Below the pieces are notes generated by a model. The model saw only the letters and a program-made list of their open reading frames with translations. It was not told where the DNA came from and did not search any database. 64,000 bases of DNA from positions 20,804,922 through 20,868,921 of the forward strand of contig NC_092678.1 of NCBI RefSeq assembly GCF_964355755.1, read 5' to 3'. The DNA is from Antedon mediterranea. Lineage: Eukaryota; Echinodermata; Crinoidea; Comatulida; Antedonidae. This document shows, piece after piece, positions 34,638 to 59,600 of the stretch. A program made the translations under genes and the position numbers. How positions within the stretch are numbered: the stretch's first letter is position 1; each line of letters begins with the position of its first letter.

Positions 34638-37600
34638 ATGACACAATCACAGAGAAAATCTGTGCAAAATAACGTACAATGTTCACTGCTTAATCATCAA
34701 GAAAATGATCAAGTGTTTAAGCTCTTGGGGAAAAGATGTGTTGTAAGTAAATTCGTGGGAGTGTTTATTTTTTTTTACGCCTGGCGAGCTAGGCTAGCCT
34801 CTAGCCTAGGCCTGGCAGCAGCTAAAGCTTTAGCCTAGATAAGGATAATCTCTTCCTGGTTGATTTTCTCACGGTTATTTGTGGACTATGGGTACTGAGT
34901 TTTGGCGTAGTGTACTACATGGGTCTTTTACTTCCAATGAGGTGGTGAGAATGAGTGCCAAACAAAAATAAAACAAACCAGAAATTTAAGAAATGAGACT
35001 GACTCTCTTTTTTTTAAAAAAAGACCTCCGAAAAAGGGAAAACTTGGGGGAAACCCACATACAGTACAAAAGCACAGCTACAGTATGCAACAGACTGCTT
35101 GTATTGTGTTTGTAGGCTAGAGTATTACATCATAATTTTATCGGTAATTTGTACATACATTAATGCTTTTAACATTGTCGTAATTAATTGTAGGCCCTAC
35201 TCCAAGGCCAATACCATATTATTAATATGTTTTCATCATTTTGTTATACTACTATTTGTAACTTTTTCATAATTTTAGACTCTAGCAACCTCTGTTGTTC
35301 AAGTGTTTCTGGCAAAGAGTGGAAGTTCGTGGGTAAAGCAATGTTGTGGCGTAGCGTGTTTCGTAAAAGATAACCCAAACAGATCATACTACATCCGAGT
35401 ATACGATATCTTAGTAAGTACTGTATACGATATCTTAGTAGGTACTTCCTAGCACAGCTTTTAATTAATTCATGTATTTTGCTGTAATGGTTAGGACCTC
35501 TCCCTGAGAGAGGTGCATCAGTTAAAAATAATTATTGATGCAGGGGTGCGTCAAAAATCCTAAATGATACAATGGTGTGTCAATGTCCGTCACTTTACCA
35601 CCCACTACCATCATGAGCAACATGGGGTTGTGTAGTTGGTCATACAATTGACAATGCATTATTGTTATTCATAAATTCACATGTCATCATGTACAATGAT
35701 ATCTTGATCATATTTAATCATCAAGATTAGATCATCTAGTGTGCTCTATGATTGACTTTCAGAATAATCCCCATCGAGCGAAATGATTAAAATAATTTAC
35801 ATTTTACATCAGTAATACACATTAAATGACAAATATCTTCTTTGTAAAAGAATGTTATAGTTACTTACTCAAGATATATTGGTGACTAAGTATTTCTACA
35901 AACAATTTATCAATAAATAAAAAGATAGAGGAATGATTCACCTTGTTTTCACCAAGTGTGACGTTTAATATAAACCAGTTATTCTCTCTGTATCAAAAAG
36001 TCTTCTTTGATCGATTGATTTTTGTTTTACTGAGTGAAAGTAGAAATTGATTAATGCAGTTGTTCAAATTCTATTGTGTTAATATATTTCATGTAATAAT
36101 GAGTCTTAAAATGTTGGCCTAACATGAGTCTAGACCTCAGTATCTACAGTAGGCTGCCACCTACTACTGTATGACCTATGTAACTTTGACATGATGCGAG
36201 TTTTCTCAAGTTTACTGTACAAATATCCCGCACAAAATGTTGTTAAAGTCAGTGTTGATGAAAACCATACAGTGTACTGTATATTCTCCTGACCTAAAGT
36301 TTTAAAAAAAACTTCCTTTATTATAATTGGCAATCACACCATTTTAAACGAAACAATTTACTTTTTGTAGGTTTGTAATTCACCACATCCAAATTATAGT
36401 AGGTCTACCTGGAAACATCAATATAGCGTGTCACAGGCCCATGTACCATCATTAATCATAAAGTTAAACTAGGCTGTATCGGAGTAAACTTTTAATGATT
36501 ATTTCCAATAACTAGTCATTACATACAGTATGAATTAAAGGAATAAGTACGGAAATAGTTGTAAATTGTCATTAAAGATGGTTACGTATAAATTAAAGAA
36601 ATTTAAAGGAAATCGTTGACAGTTATTGTTCAGTGAATCAGCCATACTAACTTCTCTTATATCTCCATTATGATGCAAATTTTAAAATGTGTCATCACAA
36701 AGGGATTTCCAGTCTGTAAATTCTCTCTAATTGTTCAACAATATCCTTACAGGTAAACGTAAAACTGTCCGGAAATGTACGTCTTATGGACTTCCTGGGC
36801 AATATTCAAAACATATCAAAGACCTTTTATTTCCATCACCTATGATTCAATTAATATCTTACAAAAATACCGACAAAAATATACTCATTCAAAACTTTCA
36901 AAACAAACTGTCTTCCGATTGGTCTGATGGAAGTGATATTTATTTCTTGTGACATTGTAAAACCAAACAGTTCTTAATAAACACCCTTCTGCCAAGCTGT
37001 GTTGATGTGAATATACTTTATACCTTGATATTTTTATTTGGATTTACTGTTGATAATTGCAAGGGATGATTTCATTACTGAAAACTGTGAAATATGATAT
37101 TGTAAGTTTGATATCTTTTTTTTTTTGACTTGCAAAGTTCTGTTGAAATGGTTACCTTAAGCATGTGGGATAATGTTGAGGTTTATTTAGGGGGTCATAT
37201 TAGGGTGCTTTCGAATTGAGCCGACCAATCTCATGTTAATTCATGACAAGACATTGGTATTTGCTTCCTCACTAGATTCTTGAACACAGTTTTGGAGGTT
37301 TCTAAGGTTGAGTTGACACCCAACCAACCAACACTGTCCAGGTCCTTGGAAATATTTCATTTTTTCAACTTCAAATTTATTTTCAAATAGTAATTGTTGC
37401 AATGATCCACCCATATTTGGAAGAGAGGTGTAGGGCAAGACAGTGTCCAGGTACTTGAAAATAGCTCCCCATTCAAGTTCAAATTTATTGTCAAATACAT
37501 ACAGTAGTAATTGAAATGTGTTGCAATGATCCACCCATATTTGGAAGAGAGGGGGAGGGCGAAACACTTTCCAGGTCCTTGAAAATAGCTCCTTATTGTT

Positions 37601-40600
37601 CAAGTTCAAATTTATTGTCAAATACGTAGTAATTGAAATTTATTGCAATGATCCACCCATATTTGGAAGAGAGGGGGAGGGCAACACACTGGAGGTCCTT
37701 GAATAGCTTCATATTTTTGCAATAATCCACCCATACTTTCGGAATATTTCAACAGAACATTGCATGTAAAATATATATTTTCTTCATTTTATTTAACTAA
37801 ACATTATTTTATAGAAAAATCTTATGGTTTGGGAACAAGAGCTTTACAATCAATTTAAGTACAAGAAACCAAGACCATTTTTTCATACATTTTCTACAGA
37901 TGTAAGTAAAACGTGGTTGGTCACTGGAAAATAATGGAGAGTTACTGTAGCTGGATTATTGATTTCCTTTGTTTATTTTATTGATCAGCTTAGAAACAAT
38001 ACCATAACAACAAAGGAAAATGAAAAAATCCTGACACTTACAAGTTTTTGTATAAAAATGTATTTTTTTGTAATAATTAGATGTAATGTTTGTCTGAAGT
38101 TTAGAGTGATACAGATACTATATATTTATTATCCAATTATTATATAATTTCCTTCTTTGCACTGAAGAAGAGCTAGATGCTCTGCAATTTATTTTTGGCT
38201 GTTCTACTTTATTGTTTGATTTTAAGCTATTTGCTTTTTTTAATTTGTATCTCCATTGAGATCCAGACACTGATACCCACAGCATGATCATTTTTCAGTA
38301 ATTTGCCTTTAGATTAATATAATTATATATAGTATTAATTATAGTATATTTATATATATATTTTCATTTTTAGACCTGCTGGGCAGGACTGAATTTCGCA
38401 AGTGACCTAGAAGCGGAAAACTTTGGTGGTGTTATTTTAGAAAAGATCAGCTTAAAACAGCAAAGACGAGGTACAGTATTATAAACAGTTTTGTCAATTT
38501 CTCTTTAGTTAGCGACACAACTATTGATGGAACATCCCTATCAAGGGTACATTTTCATGTGAAATGAAGGAAGAGAAAATATATGTGTCTACACTATGGC
38601 CAACCCCTATTCAGGGGATACTTTGTTGTGTTCCGAAGGGGGTTCCTTAATAGATCTTCTACTGGAACTTAAAAATGACTATAGTAGTAAACGAAATCTT
38701 GAAGCTGACGAGCTATTACAAGACTGAAATACTTGGAGAAGATTTCTTAAATACCAGTAGCAGACCCGTACCATAAAGTTGGGGAGGTCGTTTTCATGAC
38801 AGACTCGGAATACAGACCTGAATATTGGTGTATACATAGATTTGAAGAAATTTAAATATTGTTGCTGGATTGTCTGTTTTAATTGCTTCTTGAGTCACCG
38901 TTGTTGAGCACTTTCTATCTTTATTGTTAATACTTCCTTGAATACAACACAAGATATCTTAAAGGCCCATTTACACTAGGACGATAACGATGGACGATAA
39001 ATATATAAACATGCATTTTTTTTACATAAAACAAAATAAATTAGAAAGGTTTTCGTTCTAGAACTATAGGATAATTATTTAGGCTGTCTTTGATAAAAAT
39101 AATATTTTTAAAATTCCAATCAAATGACGTCATGATAAATAAAAACAATAAAATCGTTGTATTGTCACGATATTATTGCTCTTACTAATCATGACGTCAT
39201 TTGATTGGACGTGTGAAAATATCATTTTCATCAAAGGAAGCATAGAAGGTTATTCTATAGTTCTAGAATGAACAGTTTTTAAATTTCTTTTGTTTTATGT
39301 ATGAAAAATGCACATTTGTCTATTTATCGTCGATCGTTATCGTCCTAGTGTGAATGGGCCTTTAATCATTAATATTATGCAGTGTTTTTAAGTTTCTCAC
39401 AACTTCCTTCTTCCTAAACACAGACAAACGTCGACAGGCGCCACCAGTTCCTCCAAGTAACCAAGGATCGAACGCTCCTCCTCCATTGCCTGGTAAGTCC
39501 ATAATTTCCTCAACAATTTCCTAAATTTCTTAGCATGACAACTGTCCGTTATTAATTAGGTATTTTGTGTCTTTTATAATGATTTTACATTATTTTTAAA
39601 TGAAAAATGAAAACAAATTTAGTAAAAATAAAGTCATAATTGCAAATTCAGTTTTCTTACTTTTGTTTTTAAGTTTTATTTAAGATGAAATAAAGAATTA
39701 GCATAATAAGTTTAGCATTCACGGATAATCACAACATTTATTTTTTATAAAATTTGAGATATTACATTCTTGTTCATGTGATTAGACAGTCACATGACAG
39801 CAGCTCAATGAGGTCAGCCTAGAGTGTAGAAGAATTTATATCATGCAAACTCCGTAAATTATAAATTTCATTTATAATTTAAATAACTGTATTTTCTTTA
39901 ATAACCAATGCGACATTTCACGCTCCATATTTGATTATTTAACCATCAACTTCTTCAGTTCATCGAAGTAAATCGGTGCACGCACCTTCACGTCCCGCAC
40001 CTAGACTGAGTTCTTCCCCAAGTTTACGAGGTACAGTACGACCCCAATAGGCTGCTATGCTATTAGTAGTCTTGCTTGTGCTTAAGTATATTTCAAGTTT
40101 TGCATTCTAGCTTCATGGAGACTCTTTTATTGTTTTATGTTTGTGACTGTGTGTGTGTGTTTTTATGCACTGTGTGAGGTTTGTGGGCGTGTACCTACAG
40201 TACTGTGTATGCTTCTTTCGACATTTGATAGCCAGTTGTTTCTGACATGTTTGCGCGTGTGTGTATTTTTGTTTTTACATATTACCTTACCCTCTATAGG
40301 ACATTAAGTTGGGTGATTGAGATGTGGAGCGAAGTATCCAGGTTTGTGTATGGTATGCTATGTAAGGACGTTTTGCGTGTATGATTTGAGGGAGGAAACT
40401 CTATGGAGTTGGGAGGGCCGGCCCTGAGGTTGGGGAGAAGCATAGCCTGTTGGAATGCTACAGTATGTAAGGGTATTGTACATGTTGTAGAACTTGAGTG
40501 AGGACACCCTGGGGAGATGGGAGAGAAATAGCCTATTGGTATGCTATTTAAGGACGTTGCGTGCATGTGGGGGCACCCTGCAAAGGGGGAGACAGCCCAG

Positions 40601-43600
40601 GGGTTGGGGAGAGACAGCCTGTTTTTATGCTATGTAAGGGTATTGTACATGTTGTATAACTTGAGGGAGGACACCCTGGGGAGATGGGAGAGATAGCCCA
40701 GGGGTTGGGGAGAGAAAGCCTGTTTTTATGCTATGTAAGGGTATTGTATTGTACATGTTGTATAACTTGAGGGAGGACACCCTTGGGAGATGGGAGGACA
40801 CCCTTGGGAGATGGGAGAGAGATAGCCTGTTGGTATACTATATAATGGCATTGTACATGTTGTATAACTTAAGAGAGGAGACCCTTGGGAGATGGGAGAG
40901 AGATAGCCTGTTGTGGTATACTATGTAATGGCATTGTACATGTTGTATAACTTAAGAGAGGAGACCCTTGGGAGATGGGAGAGAGATAGCCTGTTGTGGT
41001 ATACTATGTAATGGCATTGTACATGTTGTATAACTTAAGAGAGGAGACCCTTGGGAGATGGGAGAGAGATAGCCTGTTGTGGTATACTATGTAATGGCAT
41101 TGTACATGTTGTATAACTTAAGAGAGGAGACCCTTGGGAGATGGGAGAGAGATAGCCTGTTGTGGTATACTATATAATGGCATTGTACATGTTGTATAAC
41201 TTAAGAGAGGACACCCTTGGGAGATGGGAGAGAGATAGCCTGTTGTGGTATACTATGTAATGGCATTGTACTGTACATGTTGTATAACTTAAGAGAGGAC
41301 ACCCTGGGGAGATGGGAGAGAGATAGCCTGTTGGTATGCTATGTAATGGCATTGTACATGTTGTATAACTTAAGAGAGGACACCCTTGGGAGATGGGAGA
41401 GAGATAGCCTGTTGTGGTATACTACATAATGGCATTGTACATGTTGTATAACTTAAGAGAGGACACCCTTGGGAGATGGGAGAGAGATAGCCTGTTGGTA
41501 TGCTATGTAATGGCATTGTACATGTTGTATAACTTAAGAGAGGACACCCTTGGGAGATGGGAGAGAGATAGCCTGTTGTGGTATACTATGTAATGGCATT
41601 GTACATGTTGTATAACTTAAGAGAGGACACCCTTGGGAGATGGGAGAGAGATAGCCTGTTGGTATGCTATGTAATGGCATTGTACATGTTGTATAACTTA
41701 CGAGAGGACACCCTTGGGAGATGGGAGAGAGATAGCCTGTTGGTATACTACATAATGGCATTGTATATGTTGTATAACTTAAGAGAGGACACGCTTGGGA
41801 GATGGGAGAGAGATAGCATGTTGGTATGCTATGTAATGGCATTGTACATGTTGTATAACTTAAGAGAGGACACCCTTGGGAGATGGGAGAGAGATAGCCT
41901 GTTGGTATACTATATAATGGCATTGTACATGTTGTATAACTTAAGAGAGGACACCCTTGGGAGATGGGAGAGAGATAGCCTGTTGTGGTATACTATGTAA
42001 TGGCATTGTACATGTTGTATAACTTAAGAGAGGAGACCCTTGGGAGATGGGAGAGAGATAGCCTGTTGGTATGCTATGTAATGGCATTGTACATGTTGTA
42101 TAACTTAAGAGAGGAGACCCTTGGGAGATGGGAGAGAGATAGCCTGTTGGTATACTATATAATGGCATTGTACATGTTGTATAACTTAAGAGAGGACACC
42201 CTGGGGAGATGGGAGAGAGATAGCCTGTTGTGGTATACTATGTAATGGCATTGTACATGTTGTATAACTTAAGAGAGGAGACCCTGGGGAGATGGGAGAG
42301 AGATAGCCTGTTGTGGTATACTATGTAATGGCATTGTACATGTTGTATAACTTAAGAGAGGACACCCTTGGGAGATGGGAGAGAGATAGCCTGTTGGTAT
42401 ACTATATAATGGCATTGTACATGTTGTATAACTTAAGAGAGGACACCCTTGGGAGATGGGAGAGAGATAGCCTGTTGTGGTATACTATGTAATGGCATTG
42501 TACATGTTGTATAACTTAAGAGAGGACACCCTGGGGAGATGGGAGAGAGATAGCCTGTTGGTATGCTATGTAATGGCGTTGCATACATTTGGGGGCACCC
42601 TGCGAAGGGGTAGACAGCCCAGGGGTTGGGGAGAATTAGCCTGTTTGTATGTTTTGTCTTGTATAAATGTCTCTATAGTTTGTTTTGTCGTTCTCCATTT
42701 CAACAAGTTATATATTTATTCAGACAGTTCTAACAGGTGTTCCTACAGACTGCTGTGTTTATTTAACTGTGTGGGATTTGCTACTCAATCCCACAAGATT
42801 ATCGTCATACCATTGTCTTGGTTTTTTAATAACTACTACTCTTTCAAGATAAAAACAAATGTCATACTTATGTTATATAATGTATTAATTAAATTATATT
42901 ATTGATTTTGCTTCATTTTTATTATTGCATGATTTTATTTTTGTGCATGTTTGAATGTTTTGTTTTTATTTATTATTTTTAGATTGTAGATTTTTTTTTG
43001 TAAATTTTATTTGTATGTTACAATAGAATTCCTCTGGAACATACCCCTATTATGGGGACACTATCACATACGGATGAATGGTCATATATGTTTGAATACT
43101 TAAAGGCAAACCTCTATTCAGGGCAAACCTCTATTAAGGGGACACTGCGTTGAAAAGGTCCATAAATACTGTATACTGATTATTTTCTTATATTTATATT
43201 AAGAACTTTAGAGAAATTTAATTATTAAATATCTAGATTTTTTTTTTCATTTTGTTTAAAATAATTAATTAGTTTAGACCTCAAATTTGCTTAATACTGG
43301 TGTATATGCGCTAAAGTGCTAGAAACATTTTAAAATAAAAATAGCGAACTTTAAAATTAGAAAATAAAGGTAGAAGATATTACTGCTTATAAACTGGAGG
43401 AAATAAGCATAACAGTCAATTTCGCAACCTATATTATGATACCTTAGAAATTAGAATAGCAAATGTCAATTTATTGTTTGCTACAATGCAACCTAACCAT
43501 ACCAAATCTAATGTCTGCACTATAATTTAGGAGTTTTTTAAATTTTATTTTCATGATATTGTAAAATTAATGGTTAAGGCAAAAACCACTCAAGGTTGTT

Positions 43601-46600
43601 CGAATTCTTCCACCATATTTATGGGCTATCCTTGGGGTTTATAACCCAGTTGACAGTGGCAGTATACCCATATGCCTGTTTTGTTGTTTTCAAAGTTGGT
43701 GGACTTATCTGAAAGTTGTTACTTATACAAATTTTACAATGAGAATGAATTGCTTCTTTGTAAAATGAATCTTTATATTTATATTATCTATTTTTTCATC
43801 AGAGGTACATCACACACCAAACCAGATATCAAATGACAATAATAAAGAAAAGAAAGGAACAAAGAAAAAGGACAAAAAGAAAAGCAAAATTACCAAAGCT
43901 GATATTGGGCTTCCATCAAACTTCCAGTAAGACTTTATTTTTAAAACTACTTTAAGTTTAGTATAATGCAGTTAGTACGTAGTCCTAGACTAGCTCAGCT
44001 TTCTAGGCCTACTTTAGCCAGTAAGACTTTATTTTTAAAACTACTATAAGTTTAGTATAATGCAGTTAGTACGTAGTCCTAGACTAGCTCAGCTTTCTAG
44101 GCCTACTTTAGCCAGTAAACTTTATTTGCTAGGCCAGGCTAGCTATAGAGCCGGTAATTTATAGGAGCAAATAGTTATTATCGCAATTGAAATAACAACA
44201 GTATACTCTTCATTCTGAAAATATTGAAACAAAGTGTAGACTGACAAAGACATTTTTTTTTATTTTCATAGACATGTCAGCCATGTTGGATGGGATCCTG
44301 ACAAGGGATTTGATGTAAGTAATGATAATCTATATGTCAACAATAACAACAACAAAAATGGATTAACGGTAACAACCCTATAAGTAGTGGAACAGTAGCT
44401 TGGTGGTTATTAACATGCTTTCCTTCCAATCCAAGGTCTAGGGTTCAATCTTGACATAGTGCCAGGGTTGTTGTAATTCACAGATCTTTCTATTCTTCCT
44501 AAGCCTAAAGCTCTGTCTACACTATCAAACTTTATGGTTCAAAATAATATAATTTTTTTTTTAGACTAACAATATGGATCCGTCAGTGAAGGGATGGTTT
44601 CAGTCAATTGGAGTGACGGAAGCCTTATTGAAAGACAAGAACACAGCTAAATTCATTAATGACTTTATTGAGGAACATGGAGGAATTGAAGCCGTCAAAA
44701 AGGAAGCAGAGCGTGCCAAACCAGGTCAGTTTATTTTTTGATTTTCTTTATTATTTCTTTTTTTATTTTATTTATGTCTTTAGGCACATGTGCCCAAGAA
44801 TTACCATAGTAAATTAATCACTGTCCTGTCAGATAGATTCATTCCTTAAGTATCTTAAAATTATTAAAAGTATAAGATTGATTTTTCAGAAATCAAATAC
44901 TAAACTAACTATTTTAAATGTGTTGTTTGATGCGCAGAACTTTTACAAATATATGTATATATCGTAAATCTATTTGATCCTTATGTACTGTAACTATGAA
45001 TATTCTACTTTTTTATCTTTACAGAATTGCCACCCCCACCACCACCATCAGATCGGCACCCTCGTCGAGACGGTGGAATGCCTCCTCCTGCACCACCATC
45101 ACGCCGAGACTTACCTCCCCCTCCTCCCCAGAGAGACACCAGAGCTAGCCCAAGACCCCAAAGAGCACCAGCTCCACGTCCACCTTCTTCATCCTCAAGA
45201 GGGCTTCCTCCTTTACCACCACCAAGCATGAATCAACCTCCCCCGATCACAAGACCATCACGTGGACCACCACCTCCTTCCGGTGGTGGCGGCGGTCCTC
45301 CTCCACCACCACCACCGCCTCCACCATCTGTTGGAGCAGCACCTCCACCACCACCTGTACCATCAGCAGGAGCACCATCTATGGGTGGTGGTGGTGGCGG
45401 CGGCGGAGGAGGAGGAGGCAGAGGTGATCTCTTGAGTCAGATTCAACAAGGCAAAGAGTTAAAAGCAGTAGAGCCTAACAGTAGTACACCTAGAGGAGCA
45501 TTACTTGATCAAATCAGAGGTGGAAAGAAGCTAAAGAAGGTAAGAAGTTCATTATGTGTTAAATTTATTGCTGACCCATACAATTGAATTTGGGCCTGCT
45601 GTTAATGCTACAATGGGGTCAGTTGAAACTAAGGACGATCGCAGCATCCTCTGGTTTTAAAACGTTTATTGCACAAGGTTTTTAATCAAAACTTACAGAT
45701 TTATGTTGATGACCTATTTGAATGCCAGATGATCTTCTAGCGTTTAAACCATTTATTTATTTATTATTTGACCTCTTCAGTCAAAGACTGGTCTCCCAGA
45801 TACGATCGGTAACTGTGAGGGACAGTGCCTGTGTGTGTGTGTACACTTGGATAACCCCTACATGTCTCGAAAGATGTACATGAGGTAGATGTGTACACTG
45901 GTCCTACTGTTTATAGTCCTTATCTTAGAAGACTCGTTCTACCATCAGAACCATGAAGTGAGTGAGCCTCGAACCCTTGCCGATGTTATGGCTACGTAAT
46001 TAAGGTTCCACTTTCTTAAACGCTCTGCCACTCACTCGCTCATTGACTATTGTATACAATTATTGATTTAAAAAAATAAATATTTAATTTTACTTGAAAA
46101 AACTTGCATCGTGTCAGGTGACTGACGACCGAGCTTCAGTGGCCAAGTCACCGCTTGAGTCTATCAATGATTTAGGCAGTTTGTTGAGCAAAGCTCTTGA
46201 CGACCGAAAGAAGGCTATTCAGTCAGGTAAACTAAGCGGTATCATCGCGTCGATGTTGTTCCACCCTCATACTGCTAGCTTACGCCACGCTTTTTACATT
46301 TTTACTTTGTCACATTGGTGTTTGTTTCTGCTTTAATCATACAATCATGAAATTCATCATATTTTTATCGTGTTGTGGTATTAAATTTATTGTAAATGCC
46401 TTACTGGTGTATATATATATTATAGCCTGCTGTGGTGGGCGATGTAAATTTTCTGTTTTTATATATTTATTTAATATACAGGTCTTCTTTGTTTAATAGC
46501 CATCCAGACATGAACTACTCAAAGGGAGTGTAATGATTTTTAAATTGTCAAAAAAAAAAATGTCTTCTTCTATGTAAAATAAAATTCCGTTTTCAGTGTG

Positions 46601-48398
46601 AGGTTGAAAAATGTATTGAAATTTAGTTGTGGAAGAACACATTCTATTTATGAAAAAGCCTCTGTCACAACATTTTTTTTAATTATTATTATTATTCAAC
46701 ATTTAAAACTATTGACGATTTAAATTTGTTTAAATTGAGCTTAAATGTGTGGAAAGCCTGTATATCTTGTATTTATTAGTATGGCACGCTTGTTGTGACA
46801 AATCATCTCATTGTATTGTAAAGTATAATATCATGGTATCATGCAGGTCGATCCATCTGAACAAAATAACGAACCTGTAATTGAAGACGACTCAGGCCTA
46901 GGTGCTGCCCTCAGAAAAGCCCTAGAGCTGAGGTCGAATGTGATTCGCTCAGGTAGGACATGTCATAAAAATTATACATATATATATCTGCATATCTGCA
47001 TACATGCTTAAGCTCTGTCTACACTTATTAAACTAACAAAAAAGGTGTGATGTGCCCAGATATGATAGTGATATGACATCATGTCAATATATAGGCACAT
47101 CACATTTTGTTGTCACATAATATTTGATAACGTAGACAGAGCTTTATACAGTAAATAGAATAGCTTTACAAATAGCTCTACTAACAGTGGTTACGGGATT
47201 TTAGCTATTGAATATTTTCTCAAGCATGTTTAAAACTTAGAAAACCAAAACTAACCATTTACCTAAAACTATCTCTGGGAATATATAAATTTACTAATTT
47301 TTGATAAACTTGGAATCGTTTATCATTTAATCATAATATAACAATAGGATATTCATATGTAAAATATGAATTATTTTAATTTCTAAAAGTGAGGAAATAA
47401 ATGAAACCTTTCTAAACCTTACAATAATGCATGAAATATCAGAAATTAAATAACGGAGATTCAATATGCAATGTTATAAGAAACATTAAACATATTTGAA
47501 ATGTTTGTATATTATTATGTATTTATTCATACATAGTACTTCACACATTTACAAAATTACATCATTCTTATTTTAGGGTGGCAGATGTCAACCATGTTCT
47601 ATAATAAGATAGCTAATTTCAACTTGTTTTATCCGACCAAGTTTATTCATAGAAAAAAGGGAGTGGGGGTGGGGAGAAATCTGTTCAGTCAGAACCTAAT
47701 TTAATTGGTCAAATGTTTGCCAGACTAGGGCATAAATCTGACTAATTAGCTTAAGTCTTAGATGTAAAGCAGAACCTAAATGACATCTGCTCCCAAATTA
47801 CACGTGGCTTCACTGACGCATAAATCTCTAAATGGAAATATGTGTATTAGTTCATATAACACAATAGTAGCATGCTGCATGTATTTTCAAAGCTTTTGCA
47901 TAATATCTTCATATTGCATGACTTTTGATCCTCCGCCCATTTTCCCTCTATAGAGTAGAAGCCCTCTATTTAGACTCAACTGCTCAAGGGACACTCCTAA
48001 GGGGACACTTTCTCATGGAACGAGTGAGGAGAAACTTAACACTATGACAAACACCTATTCAGAGGGCACTCCTTAAGGGGACGCTTTACAGGCCCTGAAA
48101 GTGTCCCATACTAGAGGCTCTATTGTAATTTTCCATACTCTGTAAATGTTAAATATCAATTTTGAACTCTTTCAACTCTATGAAAACCAGTATCCATTCC
48201 AGAAAGACCAGTTTTTGAAACAAAATCTAAGACCTTAAGCAAAGTCTATGGGAGTTGTATGAGTGTCCCATTTTCGTAAAGCTTTACCTTCCCCACGACT
48301 ACAGGCTAACAACAAGATTAAATATCACATTTTCAGATGATAGTGAAGGGGATGAAGATGATGAATTTGAAGATGAGGACGATGAATGGGAGGACTAA
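34638..48398 (+). CDS. WASL: Neural Wiskott-Aldrich syndrome protein (N-WASP)
   Basis: Activates the Arp2/3 complex downstream of Cdc42 to nucleate branched actin (family knowledge). Exons: 34638-34742, 35279-35413, 37815-37901, 38374-38470, 39424-39492, 39959-40030, 43803-43926, 44272-44314, 44565-44724, 45025-45539, then either 46118-46226 or 46847-46952, then 48337-48398. Product 525 or 524 residues (human about 505). Order: WH1, about 12-140 (CCGVACFVKDNPNRSYYIRV); basic patch KKKDKKKSK; CRIB/GBD with KADIGLPSNFQ and HVGWDPDKGFD; autoinhibitory GBD helix; polyproline region, about 298-425; two WH2 motifs ending LKAV and LKKV; central helix from the alternative exons; acidic tail ending DDEWED. 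The ATG at 34638 is the first in frame and gives the normal N-terminal length. Exons 2 and 7 carry duplicated splice donors. Confidence 0.95.
35399..35446 (+). repeat. 24-bp tandem duplication across the WASL exon 2 donor
   Basis: The 24 bases from 35399, spanning the last five codons of exon 2 and the GTAAGTACT donor, are repeated once with a single A-to-G change. The second copy supplies a donor (TTA|GTAGGT) at 35437/35438. Because 24 is a multiple of three, using it would add eight residues (VSTVYDIL) in frame within the WH1 domain. Confidence 0.9.
37335..37745. repeat. About 110-123-bp tandem repeat, 3.5 copies
   Basis: CCAGGTCCTTGGAAATA-type starts recur at about 37340, 37448, 37571 and (as GGAGGTCCTTGAATA) 37690. 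Each is accompanied by GATCCACCCATATTTGGAAG. It lies in WASL intron 2 and produces a spurious minus-strand open frame. Confidence 0.85.
38959..39365. mobile_element. Foldback (long-palindrome) MITE flanked by TTAA
   Basis: The two halves, each about 190 bases, are reverse complements for nearly their whole length. The ends read AGGCCCATTTACACTAGG, and TTAA borders both sides as expected for piggyBac-type insertion. The inner arms share TCAAATGACGTCATGAT. It lies in WASL intron 4, so the pre-mRNA would form a long hairpin. No coding capacity. Confidence 0.8.
40331..42650. repeat. Minisatellite, about 80-bp unit, about 26 copies, in WASL intron 6
   Basis: Units contain TTGTACATGTTGTATAACTT, then AAGAGAGGACACCCTTGGG and GATAGCCTGTTG. 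The outer copies are divergent and carry a second unit type with GGGGGCACCCTGC and GACAGCCCAGGGGTTGGGGA, found at 40568-40620 and again at 42590-42640. Inner copies are nearly identical and differ mainly by a 3-base indel (TGTTGTGGTATAC versus TGTTGGTATGC), which implies recent homogenisation. Open frames on both strands follow from the unit length and are not genes. Confidence 0.95.
43924..44111. repeat. 94-bp tandem duplication starting at the WASL exon 7 donor
   Basis: The block from the last three bases of exon 7 (CCA|GTAAGAC) onward is repeated at 44018 with one or two changes, and a third partial copy starts at 44112. The duplicate carries an identical-looking donor, but reading into it gives CAG TAA at once, so it could only truncate the protein. 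Confidence 0.9.
44384..44475 (+). mobile_element. tRNA-derived SINE head (family 1)
   Basis: GTAGCTTGGTGGTTATTAAC (A-box-like) and GGGTTCAATCTTG (degenerate B box) match the minus-strand copy at 33300-33392 in order and spacing. Located in WASL intron 8. Confidence 0.55.
44512..44545. mobile_element. Fragment of the AAGCTCTGTCTACACTATC MITE
   Basis: A single left terminus, AAGCTCTGTCTACACTATC followed by AAACTTTATGGTTC, stands about 20 bases before the acceptor of WASL exon 9. The right end is missing. Confidence 0.6.
45767..46043 (-). mobile_element. tRNA-derived SINE (family 2)
   Basis: Collinear with 60108-60395 over its whole length (shared CTCTTCAGTCAAAGACTGG, ATGTGTACACTGG, AGACTCGTTCTACCA). 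On the minus strand the head has an A-box-like and a B-box-like segment of a class II (Leu/Ser-type) tRNA. It carries a GT microsatellite. It sits in WASL intron 10, about 75 bases upstream of the first alternative exon. Confidence 0.75.
46118..46226 (+). other. WASL alternative exon 11a (central helix, version a)
   Basis: It encodes VTDDRASVAKSPLESIND followed by LGSLLSKALDDRKKAIQS. The second part aligns with the N-WASP central (connector) helix that binds Arp2/3. The first codon (Val) completes the LKKV of the second WH2 motif. Flanks are CAG acceptor and GGTAAAC donor, phase 0 in and phase 1 out, the same as exon 11b. Confidence 0.85.
46847..46952 (+). other. WASL alternative exon 11b (central helix, version b)
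   Basis: It encodes VDPSEQNNEPVIEDDSG followed by LGAALRKALELRSNVIRS, a second version of the same central helix with different charges and an acidic lead-in. It is phase 0 in and phase 1 out, so it joins exon 10 and exon 13 exactly as 11a does. Splicing 11a to 11b would read GT CGA TCC ATC TGA and stop. Confidence 0.85.
47009..47147. mobile_element. MITE, AAGCTCTGTCTACACTATC family, short copy
   Basis: TA-flanked, with TAAGCTCTGTCTACACT on the left and its counterpart CGTAGACAGAGCTTTA on the right. The interior GATATGACATCATG is shared with the 6985-7157 copy. Located in WASL intron 12. Confidence 0.75.
47953..48125. repeat. Dispersed repeat rich in CTATTCAGGGGACACT-like blocks
   Basis: Blocks such as CACCTATTCAGAGGGCACTC and TAAGGGGACACTTTC recur here and in two other WASL introns, at about 38520-38650 and 43027-43160. 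The common element looks like a family of old dispersed repeats; its ends and class are unclear. Confidence 0.4.
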
Positions 48399-50127: not shown

Positions 50128-51570
50128 ATGGGTATAAACGAAGAAAGTGGAAAAGAGAAAGCTGGTAAACTGGTGAAGCCAACGCCACTGAAGAAAGAGA
50201 AAAATATAGTGCCATCCAGCGAAGCGTATGCGCTACAAACAATAGGTGAGGCAAATTGCGGACTCTCTTTAGACACTAATTAAGAATATACCGAACTATT
50301 GTTTCTTGTTTGAGAATATATTGTAGCTGAAAATGTTGTGGCCTACTTAAAGGGAATATCCACGGACAAGACATGTATGTTTCCCATCAAACGTCTTCCC
50401 GTGTGTAGGCCTACACAGATGTTTTAGTGTCTTTCTGGTCATATTCAATATGGTCACATGAAATAGATGATAATTTGTGGTATAATGTAGGCTATATTAA
50501 TAGGAAATGTGAATTGTCAAATGACTTATGATTTAGATAAGATAAGTAGGCCTAAGGTCATCCAAGCTTATTACTAGAAACTACAAACTTTTTGAGAATC
50601 CATAACGTTACTTTTTACAGAACAAGACTTTCCAGAAAATGAAGTTCGAATTCTTCTCTTAGGAGTTGATGGCTCTGGCAAAAGTTCTGTGGCACAACTG
50701 ATTACAGGTGGTGAGGTTTTACAGACGGCTAAGAAGTCAAGTAAAAGGATAAGCGCGTACTATCCGTGCATCAGGAATGGCAGACGATATGTTGTAGTAG
50801 ACTCGCCTTGTTTGTTCCATACCCGAATCGCGCCAAAATTTGTCATTACTGAAGTTAATAAACTGATAGGCTTGACAGCCCCGGGGCCTCACATTTGCAT
50901 ATTCGTAGTCCCAGGTGTTAAGTTATCCTCTGAAGAGAAGCAGGCAATGTCAAGGATTCAAAATGCGTTCTTTCCCGGCGCTATAGACAATTCGATAATT
51001 GTTTTGACAAAATCTGATATTCTGAATTCAGATGGAACGTCTATTGAAGACTTTAAATCAAACGCTGCTCCTGTTGTACAAAATATCATGACAAAATGCA
51101 ATAATCGCGTAGTTCAAGTTGACAATGTATCTGGCGATAAAGACACTCAAAGGAATCAAATATTTGATATGATACAAGATGTTCTTCAAAGCAATACAGA
51201 CACATTCTACACAAATGATGTTTACACATTGGCTCAAGTAAATCTCAGAGTACATAAACAGAAAGCCAAAGAAAAATACATGTCTAGTGATGAAGGAATA
51301 CCGTTACTTGATAAAATAAAAGAGGTTGAACGAGTACGGCCACTGAATGATACTACGAGAGAAAATGAAACAGCCGCAGCGTCACAAGATATGATGGAAA
51401 CGGAGTTAGAGAGGTTGAAGGAACAGATGCTGCAAGTGGTGTGTGATCAGGTTCGTGATGGCATTCTCCAAGAATCGATAACTCCATTCGAGCTTAATTT
51501 ACGAAGATTACTAACTTCTGGAACTAAAGCCATTGGAAAATTCTTGTCATTTATGTGGTTTGTGCCATGA
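50128..51570 (+). CDS. GIMAP/AIG1-family GTPase-like protein
   Basis: Predicted septin-like GTPase of the immunity-associated (AIG1/GIMAP) family; family members scaffold on intracellular membranes in lymphocytes and take part in plant and invertebrate immunity (family knowledge). Two exons, 50128-50245 and 50621-51570, join in phase 1 to give 355 residues. There is a Lys-rich N-terminal extension of about 45 residues, then G1 GVDGSGKS (54-61), G3 as DSPC (100-103) instead of the usual DTPG, the GIMAP hallmark GPHICIFVV, and G4 TKSD (169-172). A charged, probably helical tail follows. The end, FLSFMWFVP, is hydrophobic but too short for a clear membrane anchor. The ATG is preceded by an in-frame stop. 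Poly(A) signal AATAAA at 51850. The G3 change may weaken hydrolysis; that is inference. Confidence 0.85.
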
Positions 51571-52572: not shown

Positions 52573-53629
52573 TTACATGGCGGTGCTGAACATGTCGGAC
52601 CGTGTGTAGTCCGTATAGTGTCCCTGAATTAAATTCAAACCATTCTTTTCAACTTTCCAACATTCTTTCTTATGTTTTCTTAAACTATCCGTTCTTCCGC
52701 TTAGTTTAGTATGGATTTGATGTCCTCTGATTGTTAGTGTTCCCCGTTGTTCTTCATCTTGCACAGTTTTAGGATGAACTTTGACATCAACAGTTGCGTG
52801 CTCAAATTGCCCTGAAAAAAAATACCATTAATTTTATTTAAACTTTATGAATGAGCATGCTCAGAACAGGTATAACGGTATTAAACTTTGCCCTTACCCA
52901 TAAGTCCATGTAGTCCGTCCGAGAAACCTCTAGCGTCTTCCATGTAAATGCCAAAGTACGCCGATGGTGAATCTTTTGGAACATGACGTCGTACAACAAA
53001 GTTGACTCCAGTAGCCAATGTGACATTTGCCTTTTCACCCTTGACCTCTACTGTAACACCATTTATCGTTATTTTTCGAGATTTTCGCCATTTTAGTTGG
53101 ATCGCATTGTTGATTATTATCTCGTTTGGACTTATTAGAATGTCTGAGTATTTAGCTGTTGGGTCATTAGGAGGATCTTTCACAAATGCTATTTGACCAA
53201 AATAGGTCTTTCTTTGCTTGTCACTTTTAACGTTTTCCTCACCAACTATAAGTCCGTTAACAAAAATACCTAAAAAGAAAGCAAACTTTGATTAATTTAT
53301 TCGGAAATTTCAAAAGCCATCTTTACGAATTTTTAAGAACTAGGCCTAAATCAATGGTTTAAAGCAAACATCAATCATTTTAATAGTGTTATTTTTATCT
53401 GCGCAATTTGAAATTGCGCAAGTCATGAATCAAGATGTCTTTTAAAGACTAGCCCGAATTCAGTCAAACTTAGTTTAGTTATTTCATATAAAAATAATAA
53501 TGTAGGCCTACATACCTTTAGCAGGATCAGCGATTAAATTAAATACGTCATCCGGGTCACCGTTTATGTCAAAACATACACTGACATTGCTCCTAGGAAC
53601 ATGTACAACAAAATGTGGATCATTGTCAC
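52573..53629 (-). other. ITI_HC_C domain with DPHF processing motif
   Basis: Three exons encode CDNDPHFVVHVPRSNVSVCF, then GLIVGEENV, YFGQIAFVKDP, GLHGLMGQF and, near the end, CWKVEKNGLNLIQGHYTDY. In vertebrate ITIH1-3 the DPHF site is cut after Asp, and that Asp becomes esterified to chondroitin sulphate. The D-P-H-F is intact here. It is the only such domain in the gene and follows the third module. Confidence 0.88.
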
Positions 53630-56600
53630 CTATTAAAAACAAATCAATAATAAATTAATAATAAATGTTTTAAATACAACAGTACAATACTGTTAGTTAT
53701 TATTATTCAAGGTAGTTTTATTTTCTGTGAAGTTAAATTTGTTTAATGCAGTGAATTATGGGAAAATGGAATAACTTTAATTTTAAAAATAATTGTGGTT
53801 GAAGCTTCTACAACCTTGCTTTTGTTAAATTAATATTGCTACTATTGTCATTTAAGTGATCATTTCGGAGAAATAAGTGGTGGTTGACAGAAAATTTGTA
53901 GGCCTAGATGGTAACATGGTATCTTTAGGATTGCATGATATAGGTCTACTTACACCAAGATCTTCCGCTTCTGCTATTTTCACATGTTTTGTAAAGGGGT
54001 GGTCTAGGCTGCAAATCTCCATACCCTCTCTCAACAATTCTCATAACTTTATCCTGGTCGCTGTCTTGCTTCACGTGATAGAACGTAAAGTTGTTAGATG
54101 TGAGGAAGTTGTATCTTTCTGCTCTTGACGTTATTTCTCTTCTTGTGAAAGTTCCAGCTCCTTGTTCTTCAAGATACGATTCAAATAATTCTAGTAAGGT
54201 GTAGTAAGCCCAGGCACGAGACATCATGTCGTCCGGGTAGCGAGCGTTGTACTGGAACTCATCTGGTGGTCTCTAGTTAACATAAAAAAGATTGTATTAG
54301 ATTATCAATTATAACTTTAATAGGAAACGTTCTTCGTGAGCTTCTTTATCTCTACCTATATTTTCTACAAATTGTGTTTCTGCTTTATTGTCTATAGATA
54401 TTCAGCTCAAGTTAACTTGTGTCCAAACAATTGGTGAATATTTCTACTAGATAGTGGTGCAAATATTGACCAACCTTTGCGTCAGCTCTTGCTTCAAAGT
54501 CAGTGTCCCGACTGATGGTCTTAATTCTGGATATAAGAATATCTCTTTGACGGAATTCATTTAGTCGACCAACCACCACAATCTCCGATCCATTGAAGTA
54601 ATTCTTGAAAACTCTTGTACTCAGATCAGCAGCAATGCCATCAAGGTAGAACACCTGGATGTCGTACAGTAATGGCGTCGCGACCTCATCATAAAATCCT
54701 TCAAGTAATTCCACAGCATTAGAAGAAGCCGGGATACTTCTTGCGATACCGTAACTCGTCAGAGCTAGTCGATTCAAGAAGTCCATATCGACATCATTTC
54801 CAAAACCCAGACAGAAAATCGAATACTCTGGTTGTCCTCTTCCGGCGTCTTCGACATTTTTGATGATCGTTTCCAACACAATCTCACCTTGTGTTGGTGT
54901 GCCATCAGTGAGAAGAATCAGAAGACCAAGAACATCTTCATTTTGTGTTCTTTGTTCGTTCTCTTTACGAAGCTGGTTAATTCCATCAAGAACAGCTCTG
55001 TTTAAATTTGTACCTACAAGATAATGTCATATTATTAAAAACAATACTATAACTTGTCTACAAGCAGTGGCAGTGGCGGGGAACAAATAGGAGAGTTGTT
55101 GATTTGCTCTTCTTTTTTTGAGAGAAATAATAATTAATTATGTACAACTGAGAAATCATGTTTGTACGAACTATGACCTTACCATCAAGTGGTTTCAAAT
55201 CCTCCACGAATCTCTGCGCATCTTGGACATTCTGTTGTGTCGCATCCACCATGTCCGTTCGGAATGGCATCACTGTGTTGGAGAATGCAAGTATATTAAA
55301 CCGATCGTTTGGTCGGACATCATTTAGAATGGTAGTAAAGGCTTTTTTCACTTGTTGGAGCTTAAGACCGTTCATCGAATCACTGACATCAATAACGAAT
55401 ACGACGTTTTTCCGAAGAGCTTGGAGAATGTTTGGCGAAAAGTGATGGATGAAGTAGTCATTGTAAAGCTGGAAAACGAATAGGGATATGTAATGTAAGC
55501 AATGCTAGTTGTTCTTTCGGGTTTCTTTTATTATAAATTATTAGATCATGCCAATGTATAATTTATCCAAAGAGGAAGAAATTATTAGCAGTAGGTTGCA
55601 GTTACACGACTGTAAGCAAGTATGTAAGTTACTGTATACAAACCTGTATATCACCACCGTCATTATTATGTACGACGTCATATTCTACGACAAACTCGCC
55701 TTTAATTCCTGTGTTACTGTAGGCAGATTGTTCTTTTTCACTTGGACTGAACTTTACCGAGGTGACTGTAGATCGCTCTTGAGTAATGGTTCCCGGTAGG
55801 TTCCTACGCTGAGGAACAGTTTGACTGCTTGTGAACATAATACTGGCATCAGTGAAACGTATACCAGCAGGCTCAGCGATCCGCACGTCGATGTTTAAAT
55901 CTTCTACTAACTAAACACAAAAATCACCAGTTGTTAAGGTATAGGAAAATACTGGTTGGTGGTGATGGGCACAAATACGTTTATCGTATGAGAATATGAG
56001 GTTAATGAAGATGATCGATAAAGAGAGAATCAGTAGGTTTGGATTTGATCACGAGATTTGATTGTATGTTAATGATGACAATGACGACAACCAGCTCTTA
56101 CCTCTCCTGGATAAAGTTTAATCACTTCTGCATATTTCCCTTTCGATCTTCTTAGTAGACGTTCGTACGTCACTTGGAATTGAGCTCTTCCATTTCCATT
56201 TATAGGTACAGATACTACCAGCGTCTTTGATCCTCCCCTATAAAGCAAAATCAGCTTTTGCTCATACAAGTTGCTATATTACCTACCTAAGTATGGTATA
56301 AGCCATTACTAGTCGGTCAAGACACTGAAGGACTAGATTGTTAGGAAATATCGTAACCACATATCTTCTGCCCTGTACTTTATATTTTTGGTTCTTTTGA
56401 ACTTTACTTACCAATGTTCTACAAAACCTCCATTGCCATTTATATCTAATGGTCCTTGGTCAGTATTGGGGAAAGTAGACATGTCAAACGCGTCACTCGA
56501 GTACGTTGAACCGTCAATATCCCTACAAAAGTTAAGATAAAATATATCACAATGACCGTGTGTACTTTACTATTATGTATGTTTTTTATAACTAAATTAA

Positions 56601-59600
56601 TAGAGTTAGCAACATTTTCAATCTTCATGCTGAAGCTTGAGAATACTGTATATAGTTAGGCATAATCATTTGTCGTTCGTTCATTCAGTCAGTCAGTCAT
56701 ACCGACTGGTTAGGGCCTACAGTTTTCTTTAGTTGTCGTTTGGAAATTCTAGGCCTAGACCTGCCCAGCACTCTGGTGTTACTTACATCCTAAACGCTGA
56801 GATGACGGCATCACCAGGCATGTCAAACCGGAATACCACTCTACCCTTACGTGCGCTCAAATTATCAAACAGCTTAAATGCTTCTGTGATCGAGTACCGG
56901 GCTCCAATTGTACACTTGATGGTAAACTGACGTAGGTCAATTCCATCCTAGATAAAAAAAAATTTAAAAATAAATAATAATACAAATTACATGATAATGC
57001 ACTGGTATAAAATAGGTTGTGCTCAAAAGGATTGGCATAAATTATCGTTTAAATGCGTATAAAGAAGTATTTATAGAGGGGTCATGTCACTTACTGATTC
57101 TTTTAATATAATCCCTGATGGGATAGCTGGCGGTGAGTCAGTAACTGAAAAAAAAATTACACAAAATAATTATTTGTATACTCATTTTTTAAAGAAACAA
57201 GACCAACTTTGGACTATAAATAACAAAATAGTGTATGGCATTTGAACTAAATCTTTCTCAGCCTTTGTACTATACTGCTGCTGTATAGAAATTGACCTCT
57301 GAATTACTTGAAGGTTGTATTTGAACGTGTCTTCAAGTAGTTTTTCAACGGTTAGATGGAAATAGCGTTTATCAAGCAACTGGCTTATGGAAACTAATTA
57401 CGAAATATTCTTTGAATCTACGTTCAGTGAGTATAATAGTACTTACCAACAGTAGGTTTATAGTCTTTCACAAGAGTATTATACAAAGCAAAGTCATCAC
57501 TGCTAAACGTCACGAGTGGATGAGACAGAGAGCCATCATTTATTTTCTTCTGTGACGTCGGATCGACGAACACAAGAGGTGTCAGTGGCGTAAAGAACTT
57601 GTATTTCTGCGCAACGTCTATGATTTCTGCTGCAATCGTCGGATCGTCTGTCCTTGCGTAACGATCCAAGAGGTGTCTGACTCGTAAATAAGCCCATATC
57701 CTTTCAACAACATCATTTGGAACGTACTGCGAGTTCATCTCTGGTGAAGGATTCTGGGAAACAATGTTGTTGATAATGTTATTTTTTAGACATTAGTTTT
57801 CATGTGTATTTTTTTTATATCTAGAGAGTACTTTAGACAAATCGAGTTCTAAAGATATACTTATTTTTAAAGAATGTTTCTCTTTATATTATTAAGTGTT
57901 ATGAATTTCGAACATTTATGGCTGTGTGTTGTCACTACCAATGTTGCCATATGTAGTCTATATATATATATTTAAATAAAACGTTATGCTTACTCTAATT
58001 GATGTATCAGCTTGGAATGTTCTCAATCGTCCCGTATCTGATCGTCCAGTTACTGTTCCTCTTAAAACACCAGACGCGTCATCTGTCAACTTCCCTGCAG
58101 ACGGTATCTCTGACCCTTCAAAGTACGGATACGTCATGACTGCTGTGAGTGAATCCGGGTCAATTTTGTCGCTTGAATATTGGAAATTCGTATCCATCAG
58201 CAACGCTGCTGATATTTCTCCATATAAGTCTTCAAGGCGTTTCGCAGCATCATCATCTACGTAAATTTTAGTAGCACGACCGCTATTCTGTGCAGCTAGT
58301 CTCACCAGAAACTCAAAATCGGCATCAGGGCCAAAACTGACTGCGTACAAAGAATGCGCACTGTTGATACCGTTTGTTACCTGCTGGACGAGCTGATCAG
58401 TGTCTGTGATGCCGACGCTGGGCTTACCGTCCGTGAATACTACGATCATTGAGTAGATTTCGTCATCATTTCCAGATACATCACGTGCACCTCGGTCAAG
58501 AACTTCATCAGCCTTAGTCAACGCCGAGAACAGATTTGTATCTAGAAAGTAATATCCATGTGTTTTACCTTAACCTCTTTGCATATTGTTTAAAAATTAA
58601 ACTTTGTTTATTTCATAATATATACAATAGCTTTAAAAAGAAGTAACACCTACCTCCTCCATCTGTCAACCTGTTAATAAAATTCTTTGCATCAACTTTG
58701 TTGTTTGTGTAAGCTTCTGCCAATCCTCTCGGACGCCATGCTTTTGGTTGATCGGCGAAACTAATAACATTGAATCTGTCGTTTCGTCCCAGATCGTCAA
58801 TGACTGACTTTACAGCTTCTTTAGTCTGTCGTAGCTTCTCACCTAACCCCATCGATGCGCTTGTATCAATCACGAACACAACGTGTTTGGCCACTTCTCT
58901 CAGTCCATTTGGAGAAAAGTAGTGAACGAAATAGCCATCTTTAGCCTGTACAAGTGTAACTACTTTAATGGCAATCTTCATAGTACAGTACAGTAGTATA
59001 AAACCTATGCCTATTCTGATAGTCATTCATAATTAATAGGCTTTTAAACAATGCGAAATAACTCCTAGGGAAATAATTTGTGTTCGCTGGTGTAAATGAT
59101 TGTAACGATTGTAAACTAAGAGGAATTTGAACTTTGACCTACCTCCATGTAACCGCCAGAAGTATCATGCTCTACGTCATACCTCACTACTATGTCTCCT
59201 TTGATTCCACCCGAGTTGTCAATGTGATTATTTTGTTTGTCGACGGTGAAGTCGTAAACTAACTGTCTGGCTGTAGATCCTCTACGCGTCAATTCATTGG
59301 TCAATACAATATCTTCTCCATCCTCTACATGGTTATCAAACTTGGCGTCTATTGAGTCTATTTCCTGAGGTTCTGTTACGTATATGGCAGTTCGAAGATC
59401 ACGAACAATCTGAAAATGATACGTGTCGCATTTAAACATACATGTTGGTTGTTGAATGAGTCAGCAGGCGCACTGGAACATATAGCGATACAGCACTGCC
59501 ACACACAGCCACTACTTAAAATAGGCCTTCTAGTGGGCCTACTAGTTGCAAAATCTTCAACTGGTTGAAGGCGACAAGGATTATTGAAGCCCTTCTATAG

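Follow-up and report, generated by a model that had tools for sequence, protein, structure and literature searches.

Known alternative exons of WASP-family genes and a candidate pair in a crinoid

The closest described system is the WASP gene of the mollusc Aplysia californica, in which the mutually exclusive exons 11A and 11B span the end of the second WH2 motif and the C domain (Kollmar, Lbik and Enge 2012, PMC3298513). This pair was found by searching complementary DNA (cDNA) and expressed sequence tags (ESTs). That survey gives it as the sole alternatively spliced exon of the family, reports that counterparts were sought in Lottia, Capitella, Helobdella and other relatives and that none was found, and mentions, with doubt, an earlier claim that one form of WASP lacks exon 2. 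The same source already suggested modulated autoinhibition as a role for the pair, which it termed pure speculation. Our search of the literature for mutually exclusive invertebrate WASP C-domain exons returned only this paper, and later papers may lie outside that search. Here, we describe a candidate pair of this kind in the crinoid echinoderm Antedon mediterranea, located within a 64,000-nucleotide (nt) stretch of contig NC_092678.1 (G000:C9:20804922-20868921) that is called the window below.

A reading of the window from its sequence alone had proposed that two exons of a WASP/N-WASP gene, A and B, are mutually exclusive and encode alternative versions of the C helix. This proposal is well supported by the exon borders and phases, by the consequences for the reading frame, by the likeness of the helices and by the pattern across codon positions, and it is very likely that A and B arose by tandem duplication and are used as a mutually exclusive pair. 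Each exon opens with the V of an LKKV motif and occupies the same place as Aplysia 11A/11B, the two pairs being likened by position and description. Given the Aplysia precedent at the same stretch, which the proposal did not mention, the idea of such an exon pair is not new. Rather, A and B look like a second, distant case, in an echinoderm instead of a mollusc and read from DNA alone instead of from cDNA and ESTs. In the survey, alternative splicing is all but absent from the WASP family, Aplysia being the one exception (PMC3298513). Another pair at this position in a distant animal would suggest either repeated duplication of the exon for the Arp2/3-activating helix or an ancient pair that has often been lost. 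The more specific proposal, that the C-helix exon was duplicated independently in at least two phyla to give helices that differ in Arp-site preference or in folding back on the GBD, is possible but should be held tentatively.

Vertebrate N-WASP (WASL; PDB 6uhc_H) resembles the Antedon protein in having two WH2 motifs, a C helix and an acidic tail ending in DDEWED, and differs in that the survey gives no alternatively spliced exon of the family outside Aplysia (PMC3298513). Arpin provides a further comparison. In a published study, an Arpin chimera in which WH2 is followed by the N-WASP C helix is reported to activate Arp2/3, which a chimera of this kind carrying the native Arpin C helix fails to do. 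Both the sequence of the C helix and its length are reported to determine Arp2/Arp3 binding and activator or inhibitor character, helix length at the N-terminal end being termed crucial (PMC8810855). These outcomes indicate that the C helix can decide activity. Arpin and N-WASP are separate genes joined in engineered chimeras, whereas A and B are putative splice forms of one gene. With two naturally occurring helices set in the same protein, the pair would allow the role of the C helix in activation and autoinhibition to be tested.

Exon borders and predicted spliced products

The segments that bear on the choice between A and B are listed here in window coordinates.

45025-45539, + strand: exon for the proline-rich region and both WH2 motifs, closing with LKK (phase 0; Pfam WH2 at contig positions 20850329-20850394 and 20850407-20850463)
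46118-46226, + strand: exon A, comprising the V of LKKV, a linker and C helix version A (DLGSLLSKALDDRKKAIQS), by splicing in silico and alignment
46847-46952, + strand: exon B, comprising the V of LKKV, an acidic linker and C helix version B (GLGAALRKALELRSNVIRS), by splicing in silico and alignment
46953-48336, + strand: intron 3' of exon B, with TGCATG words at 47428, 47876 and 47915, by word count
48337-48398, + strand: coding part of the last exon, encoding the acidic tail DDSEGDEDDEFEDEDDEWED and a stop, common to A and B (N-WASP, PDB 6uhc_H, aligns to the end)

The WH2 exon ends with LKK in phase 0 at 45539, followed by gtaagaag. Exon A is 109 nt long (..gtgtcag/GTGACTGAC..CAGTCAG/gtaaac) and exon B 106 nt (..catgcag/GTCGATCCA..CGCTCAG/gtagga). 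Both have AG/GT borders, enter in phase 0 and leave in phase 1, which agrees with the borders and phases originally proposed. The last exon follows ttttcag and begins with AT, and all borders in this stretch are GT-AG.

When A alone is spliced in silico, a full VCA region results (..LKKVTDDRASVAKSPLESINDLGSLLSKALDDRKKAIQSDDSEGDEDDEFEDEDDEWED), and B alone likewise gives a full VCA region (..LKKVDPSEQNNEPVIEDDSGLGAALRKALELRSNVIRSDDSEGDEDDEFEDEDDEWED); both end with DDEWED. These products bear out the claims that each exon fits between the WH2 and acidic exons, encodes a C helix and supplies the Val that completes LKKV. Inclusion of both exons had been said to give an immediate stop. A stop does follow, although four codons (GRSI) precede it (..AIQSGRSI, then stop), and it lies 92 nt ahead of the last junction, where a stop usually brings about nonsense-mediated decay. 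Skipping both exons shifts the frame, as had been anticipated, such that 25 other residues replace the acidic tail (..LKKMIVKGMKMMNLKMRTMNGRTNTTTK, then stop). Because the tail is destroyed by the presence of both exons or of neither, the reading frame would enforce a choice. We infer that cells splice in A or B, one per message, and that messages with both would be cleared by nonsense-mediated decay, while those that skip both would lack the C-helix and acidic (CA) region.

The two C helices and their relationship to N-WASP

When trimmed to 19 residues, the C helices of A, B and N-WASP (PDB 6uhc_H) align without gaps and share L6, R13, I17 and S19. A and B are 47% identical over these residues, and their helix nucleotides agree at 31 of 58 positions, a value equalled by none of 10,000 shuffles. 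Identity at codon positions 1, 2 and 3 is 12/19, 12/19 and 6/19, respectively (Fisher one-sided p = 0.024). Such a pattern would be expected of two copies that have both been under translation for a long time. Better retention of the first two sites than of the third is unlike a copy that has been dead since duplication, in which positions 1 and 2 would drift nearly like position 3. The guanine-plus-cytosine (GC) content of exons A and B (0.486 and 0.491) is also similar, and compares with 0.30-0.38 for the three introns.

The rule for the WASP-family C domain given in the survey calls for three large hydrophobic residues at three-residue spacing, followed by two or three consecutive R/K residues and, last, a further large hydrophobic residue (PMC3298513). 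Both helices have L2, L6, L10 and I17, in line with its hydrophobic part. Helix A carries D11 D12 R13 K14 K15 with the basic triplet RKK and fits the rule fully, while helix B carries E11 L12 R13 S14 N15 V16 with one Arg only (LRSN). The linker between V and C has a net charge of -1 in A and -6 in B. Searches of the PDB with the whole VCA region, thus including WH2 and the acidic tail, match N-WASP at 56.1 bits for A and 56.7 bits for B.

AlphaFold2 models from single sequences place a helix at residues 12-35 in A (mean predicted local distance difference test score, pLDDT, 86.8) and at 18-34 in B (mean pLDDT 74.9). These models, run without an N-WASP control, hint that the helix of A starts about six residues earlier than that of B. 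The helical hydrophobic moment is unremarkable relative to permutations, with values as high in 486/5000 for A, 625/5000 for B and 1298/5000 for N-WASP.

Distinctness from chance and search for further copies

Among the 47 open windows of 19 codons that end at GT between 45540 and 48336, exons A and B included, the BLOSUM62 scores against the N-WASP helix are 32 for B, 24 for A and 2 for the next best. If the splice requirement is dropped, B ranks first and A fifth among the 38,662 open 19-mers of the window. A combined pattern (AG, an open in-phase exon of 75-160 nt, a GT donor and C-helix spacing) is passed only by the donors at 46226 and 46952 when both strands of the whole window are considered; the spacing was derived from A, B and N-WASP, so that A and B pass by construction and the informative part is that nothing else does. 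Simulated intron sets yielded any candidate in only 2 of 400 cases. A third C-helix copy was also considered and rejected, there being none in the 47 open windows of 45540-48336 and no further donor in the window that passes the pattern.

Genome-wide searches covered 354 Mb on 18 contigs. The exon A protein recovered only its own place and not B, and likewise the exon B protein did not recover A. Three other WH2 loci (L001-L003) have best C-like scores of 14, 20 and 12 on the + strand, with no convincing C helix with an acidic tail on that strand. We take these loci to be genes of WIP, WHAMM or WASH type, which offer no usable control for C exons.

Proposed consequences and competing explanations

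If the exons are used as proposed, two N-WASP isoforms would have WH1, CRIB/GBD, WH2 and the acidic tail in common and would differ in the C helix and V-C linker. The autoinhibitory GBD, and likewise the clefts at the barbed ends of Arp2 and Arp3, would thereby meet different helices and linkers. We expect Arp2/3 activation, or release from autoinhibition, to differ in degree rather than to be switched on or off. A functional difference between the isoforms is plausible, with the chances about even, and the initial suggestion of a splicing switch in nucleation strength or autoinhibition is a hypothesis. On the tentative reading of independent duplication given above, one WASP gene would make a strong, easily released activator together with a weaker or differently gated one, and splicing would do what vertebrates do with the WASP and N-WASP genes.

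Alternatively, both C helices might be used but be functionally equivalent, with the duplication being neutral or only a splicing buffer. A and B agree at residues 2, 6, 10, 13 and 17, where N-WASP has an identical or similar residue, and both VCA versions match N-WASP in the PDB equally. However, the linker charges and helix positions 11-16 differ greatly, and so do the predicted helix lengths, although the latter come from the single-sequence models and are weak evidence. Overall, equivalence appears rather unlikely.

It is improbable that one exon alone is used and that its partner is a dead or decaying copy whose frame luck or recency has preserved. The copies look old, as judged by their third-position and overall helix identities, yet frame, phase, AG/GT borders and helix residues are intact in both, and their GC contents are alike and above the intron means. 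Neutral decay was simulated in 20,000 runs, in which frame, splice dinucleotides and a helix score had to be retained, the score threshold being that of the other exon. At d = 0.6, which is similar to the observed divergence (mean identity about 32/58), everything was kept in 0 of 20,000 runs from A and in 0.015% of those from B.

Several observations weigh against A and B being a used pair, and some of them lend weight to a dead or dying copy. The outcome of the neutral runs is sensitive to the assumed age: at d = 0.4, runs from A kept all features in 0.035% of cases and runs from B in 0.58%, and at d = 0.2 the corresponding shares were 0.26% and 9.6%, the last value being in favour of a decaying copy. 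Runs from A also faced a harsher threshold, namely B's score of 32, which is above A's own 24. The codon-position evidence comprises 19 codons only, and a GC content as high as that of A or B also occurs in 19 of 2264 intron windows. Likeness between the exons is confined to the helix, the whole-exon global score being reached by 51 of 2000 shuffles, and the exon flanks retain no significant likeness as a trace of duplication (36/300 and 53/300 shuffles as high). The gap-free match to N-WASP depends on trimming, in that full-length MAFFT alignment places a one-residue gap in the N-WASP helix. HMMER likewise places such a gap for A and none for B. B's lone Arg departs from the K/R doublet or triplet of the C-domain rule, and the absence of a basic doublet would suit a decaying B. 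The failure of the A and B searches to find each other means that a further diverged copy or paralogue could escape detection. The acceptors of A and B are the pyrimidine-poorest of eight (7/16 and 8/16, versus 9-14/16 for the six others, of which the CRIB2 acceptor was counted one base off), and such weak polypyrimidine tracts are compatible with disuse. Whole-intron duplexes among the three introns are matched or exceeded in strength by 44/60, 42/60 and 21/60 shuffles. Finally, the pair is known here from the DNA of a single genome, which also leaves room for a dead copy.

Least probable is a regulatory switch in which messages with both exons (stop, then decay) or with neither (no CA region) deliberately lower WASP activity, since, although the position of the A+B stop relative to the last junction and the loss of the acidic tail on skipping would serve this end, a single poorly spliced exon would suffice and the presence of two different helices with like features would be left unexplained.

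How exclusion may be achieved

For the favoured explanation, a used and mutually exclusive pair, a means of exclusion would be needed. The intron between A and B is 620 nt long, which makes crowding unlikely. Competing RNA pairing among the three introns was rejected as a candidate because the duplexes do not rise above shuffles, in a test that is poor for short docking sites; 15 inverted-repeat pairs were noted. We favour a mechanism in which weak competing acceptors would be under protein control, with the reading frame acting as a filter. Three of the window's 21 + strand copies of TGCATG lie in the 1384-nt intron after B, where about 0.45 would be expected proportionally. We take TGCATG to be the Rbfox motif, and these words might represent Rbfox sites, a weak lead found after the fact.

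Layout of the WASP gene

The gene runs on the + strand from a first coding exon at 34638 to a stop codon that ends at 48398. The proline-rich/two-WH2 exon is followed by exon A, exon B and the acidic last exon. Upstream exons are as follows, with the list being incomplete between 38374 and 43926.

34638-34742, + strand: first coding exon, start of the WH1 region, translation MTQSQRKSVQNNVQCSLLNHQENDQVFKLLGKRCV, followed by gtaagt
35279-35413, + strand: WH1 exon, by translation and Pfam WH1 (PF00568; E 8.3e-7, contig positions 20840197-20840334, window 35276-35413)
37815-37901, + strand: WH1 exon, KNLMVWEQELYNQFKYKKPRPFFHTFSTD (Pfam WH1, E 3.1e-6, window 37761-37901)
44272-44314, + strand: second half of what we take to be the CRIB motif (HVSHVGWDPDKGFD), by translation
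44565-44724, + strand: presumed autoinhibitory (GBD/WAID) exon, common to both isoforms, translation ..GWFQSIGVTEALLKDKNTAKFINDFIEEHGGIEAVKKEAERAKP

The first coding exon has no family match, and we presume its likeness to WASL. The two Pfam matches establish WH1 at the N-terminus, the second of them extending into the preceding intron. Pfam PBD has no match in the window because the CRIB motif is divided by an intron, and this motif and the autoinhibitory GBD are tentative assignments made by eye from the translation. WH2, the C helix and an acidic tail with Trp are present, in that N-WASP aligns through both VCA versions to the C-terminus. Among seven Pfam WH2 matches genome-wide, only those at the WASP locus form an adjacent pair, which suggests, at the sensitivity of the WH2 search, that the WASP gene is single in this genome.

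Two repeats lie within the gene. An 83-nt tandem array (40794-42581; 21.7 copies, 95% matches) is located in a WASP intron upstream of the CRIB exons. A 94-nt tandem duplication (43924-44127, 98% alike) begins at the end of the exon preceding the CRIB intron, and thus the donor region is repeated within the intron.

Neighbouring genes and other loci

Just downstream of the WASP gene is a 324-codon open frame that includes an AIG1/GIMAP-type GTPase domain (50596-51567, E 3.7e-35). Beyond it, in the region 53000-63400, VWA-domain exons are present on the minus strand (54415-55026, 57961-58569 and 62313-62684; Pfam VWA), which presumably belong to tandem genes resembling those for inter-alpha-trypsin-inhibitor heavy chains (ITIH). 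On the other side, the region 18166-29134 includes a coiled-coil-like open frame of 480 codons to which Pfam assigns no family, and further along an exon whose NAV1-like AAA lid match falls under the cut-off. We assume that this region resembles the gene for cortactin-binding protein 2, which would place another actin regulator beside WASP.

Elsewhere in the genome, twelve Hox homeodomains are located at 7.83-8.21 Mb of a second contig (C2), three of which are posterior and of Hox11/13 type. None of the twelve shows the spiralian KLTGP tail. By the usual criteria, this set points to an ambulacrarian (echinoderm or hemichordate) rather than to a mollusc. A search for COX1 gave no match, and neither did one for the molluscan hemocyanin domain PF14830, although its controls stayed silent too, so that the latter is no sign of absence. 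One posterior homeodomain (L016, G000:C2:7848413-7848592) is inverted relative to the remaining eleven.
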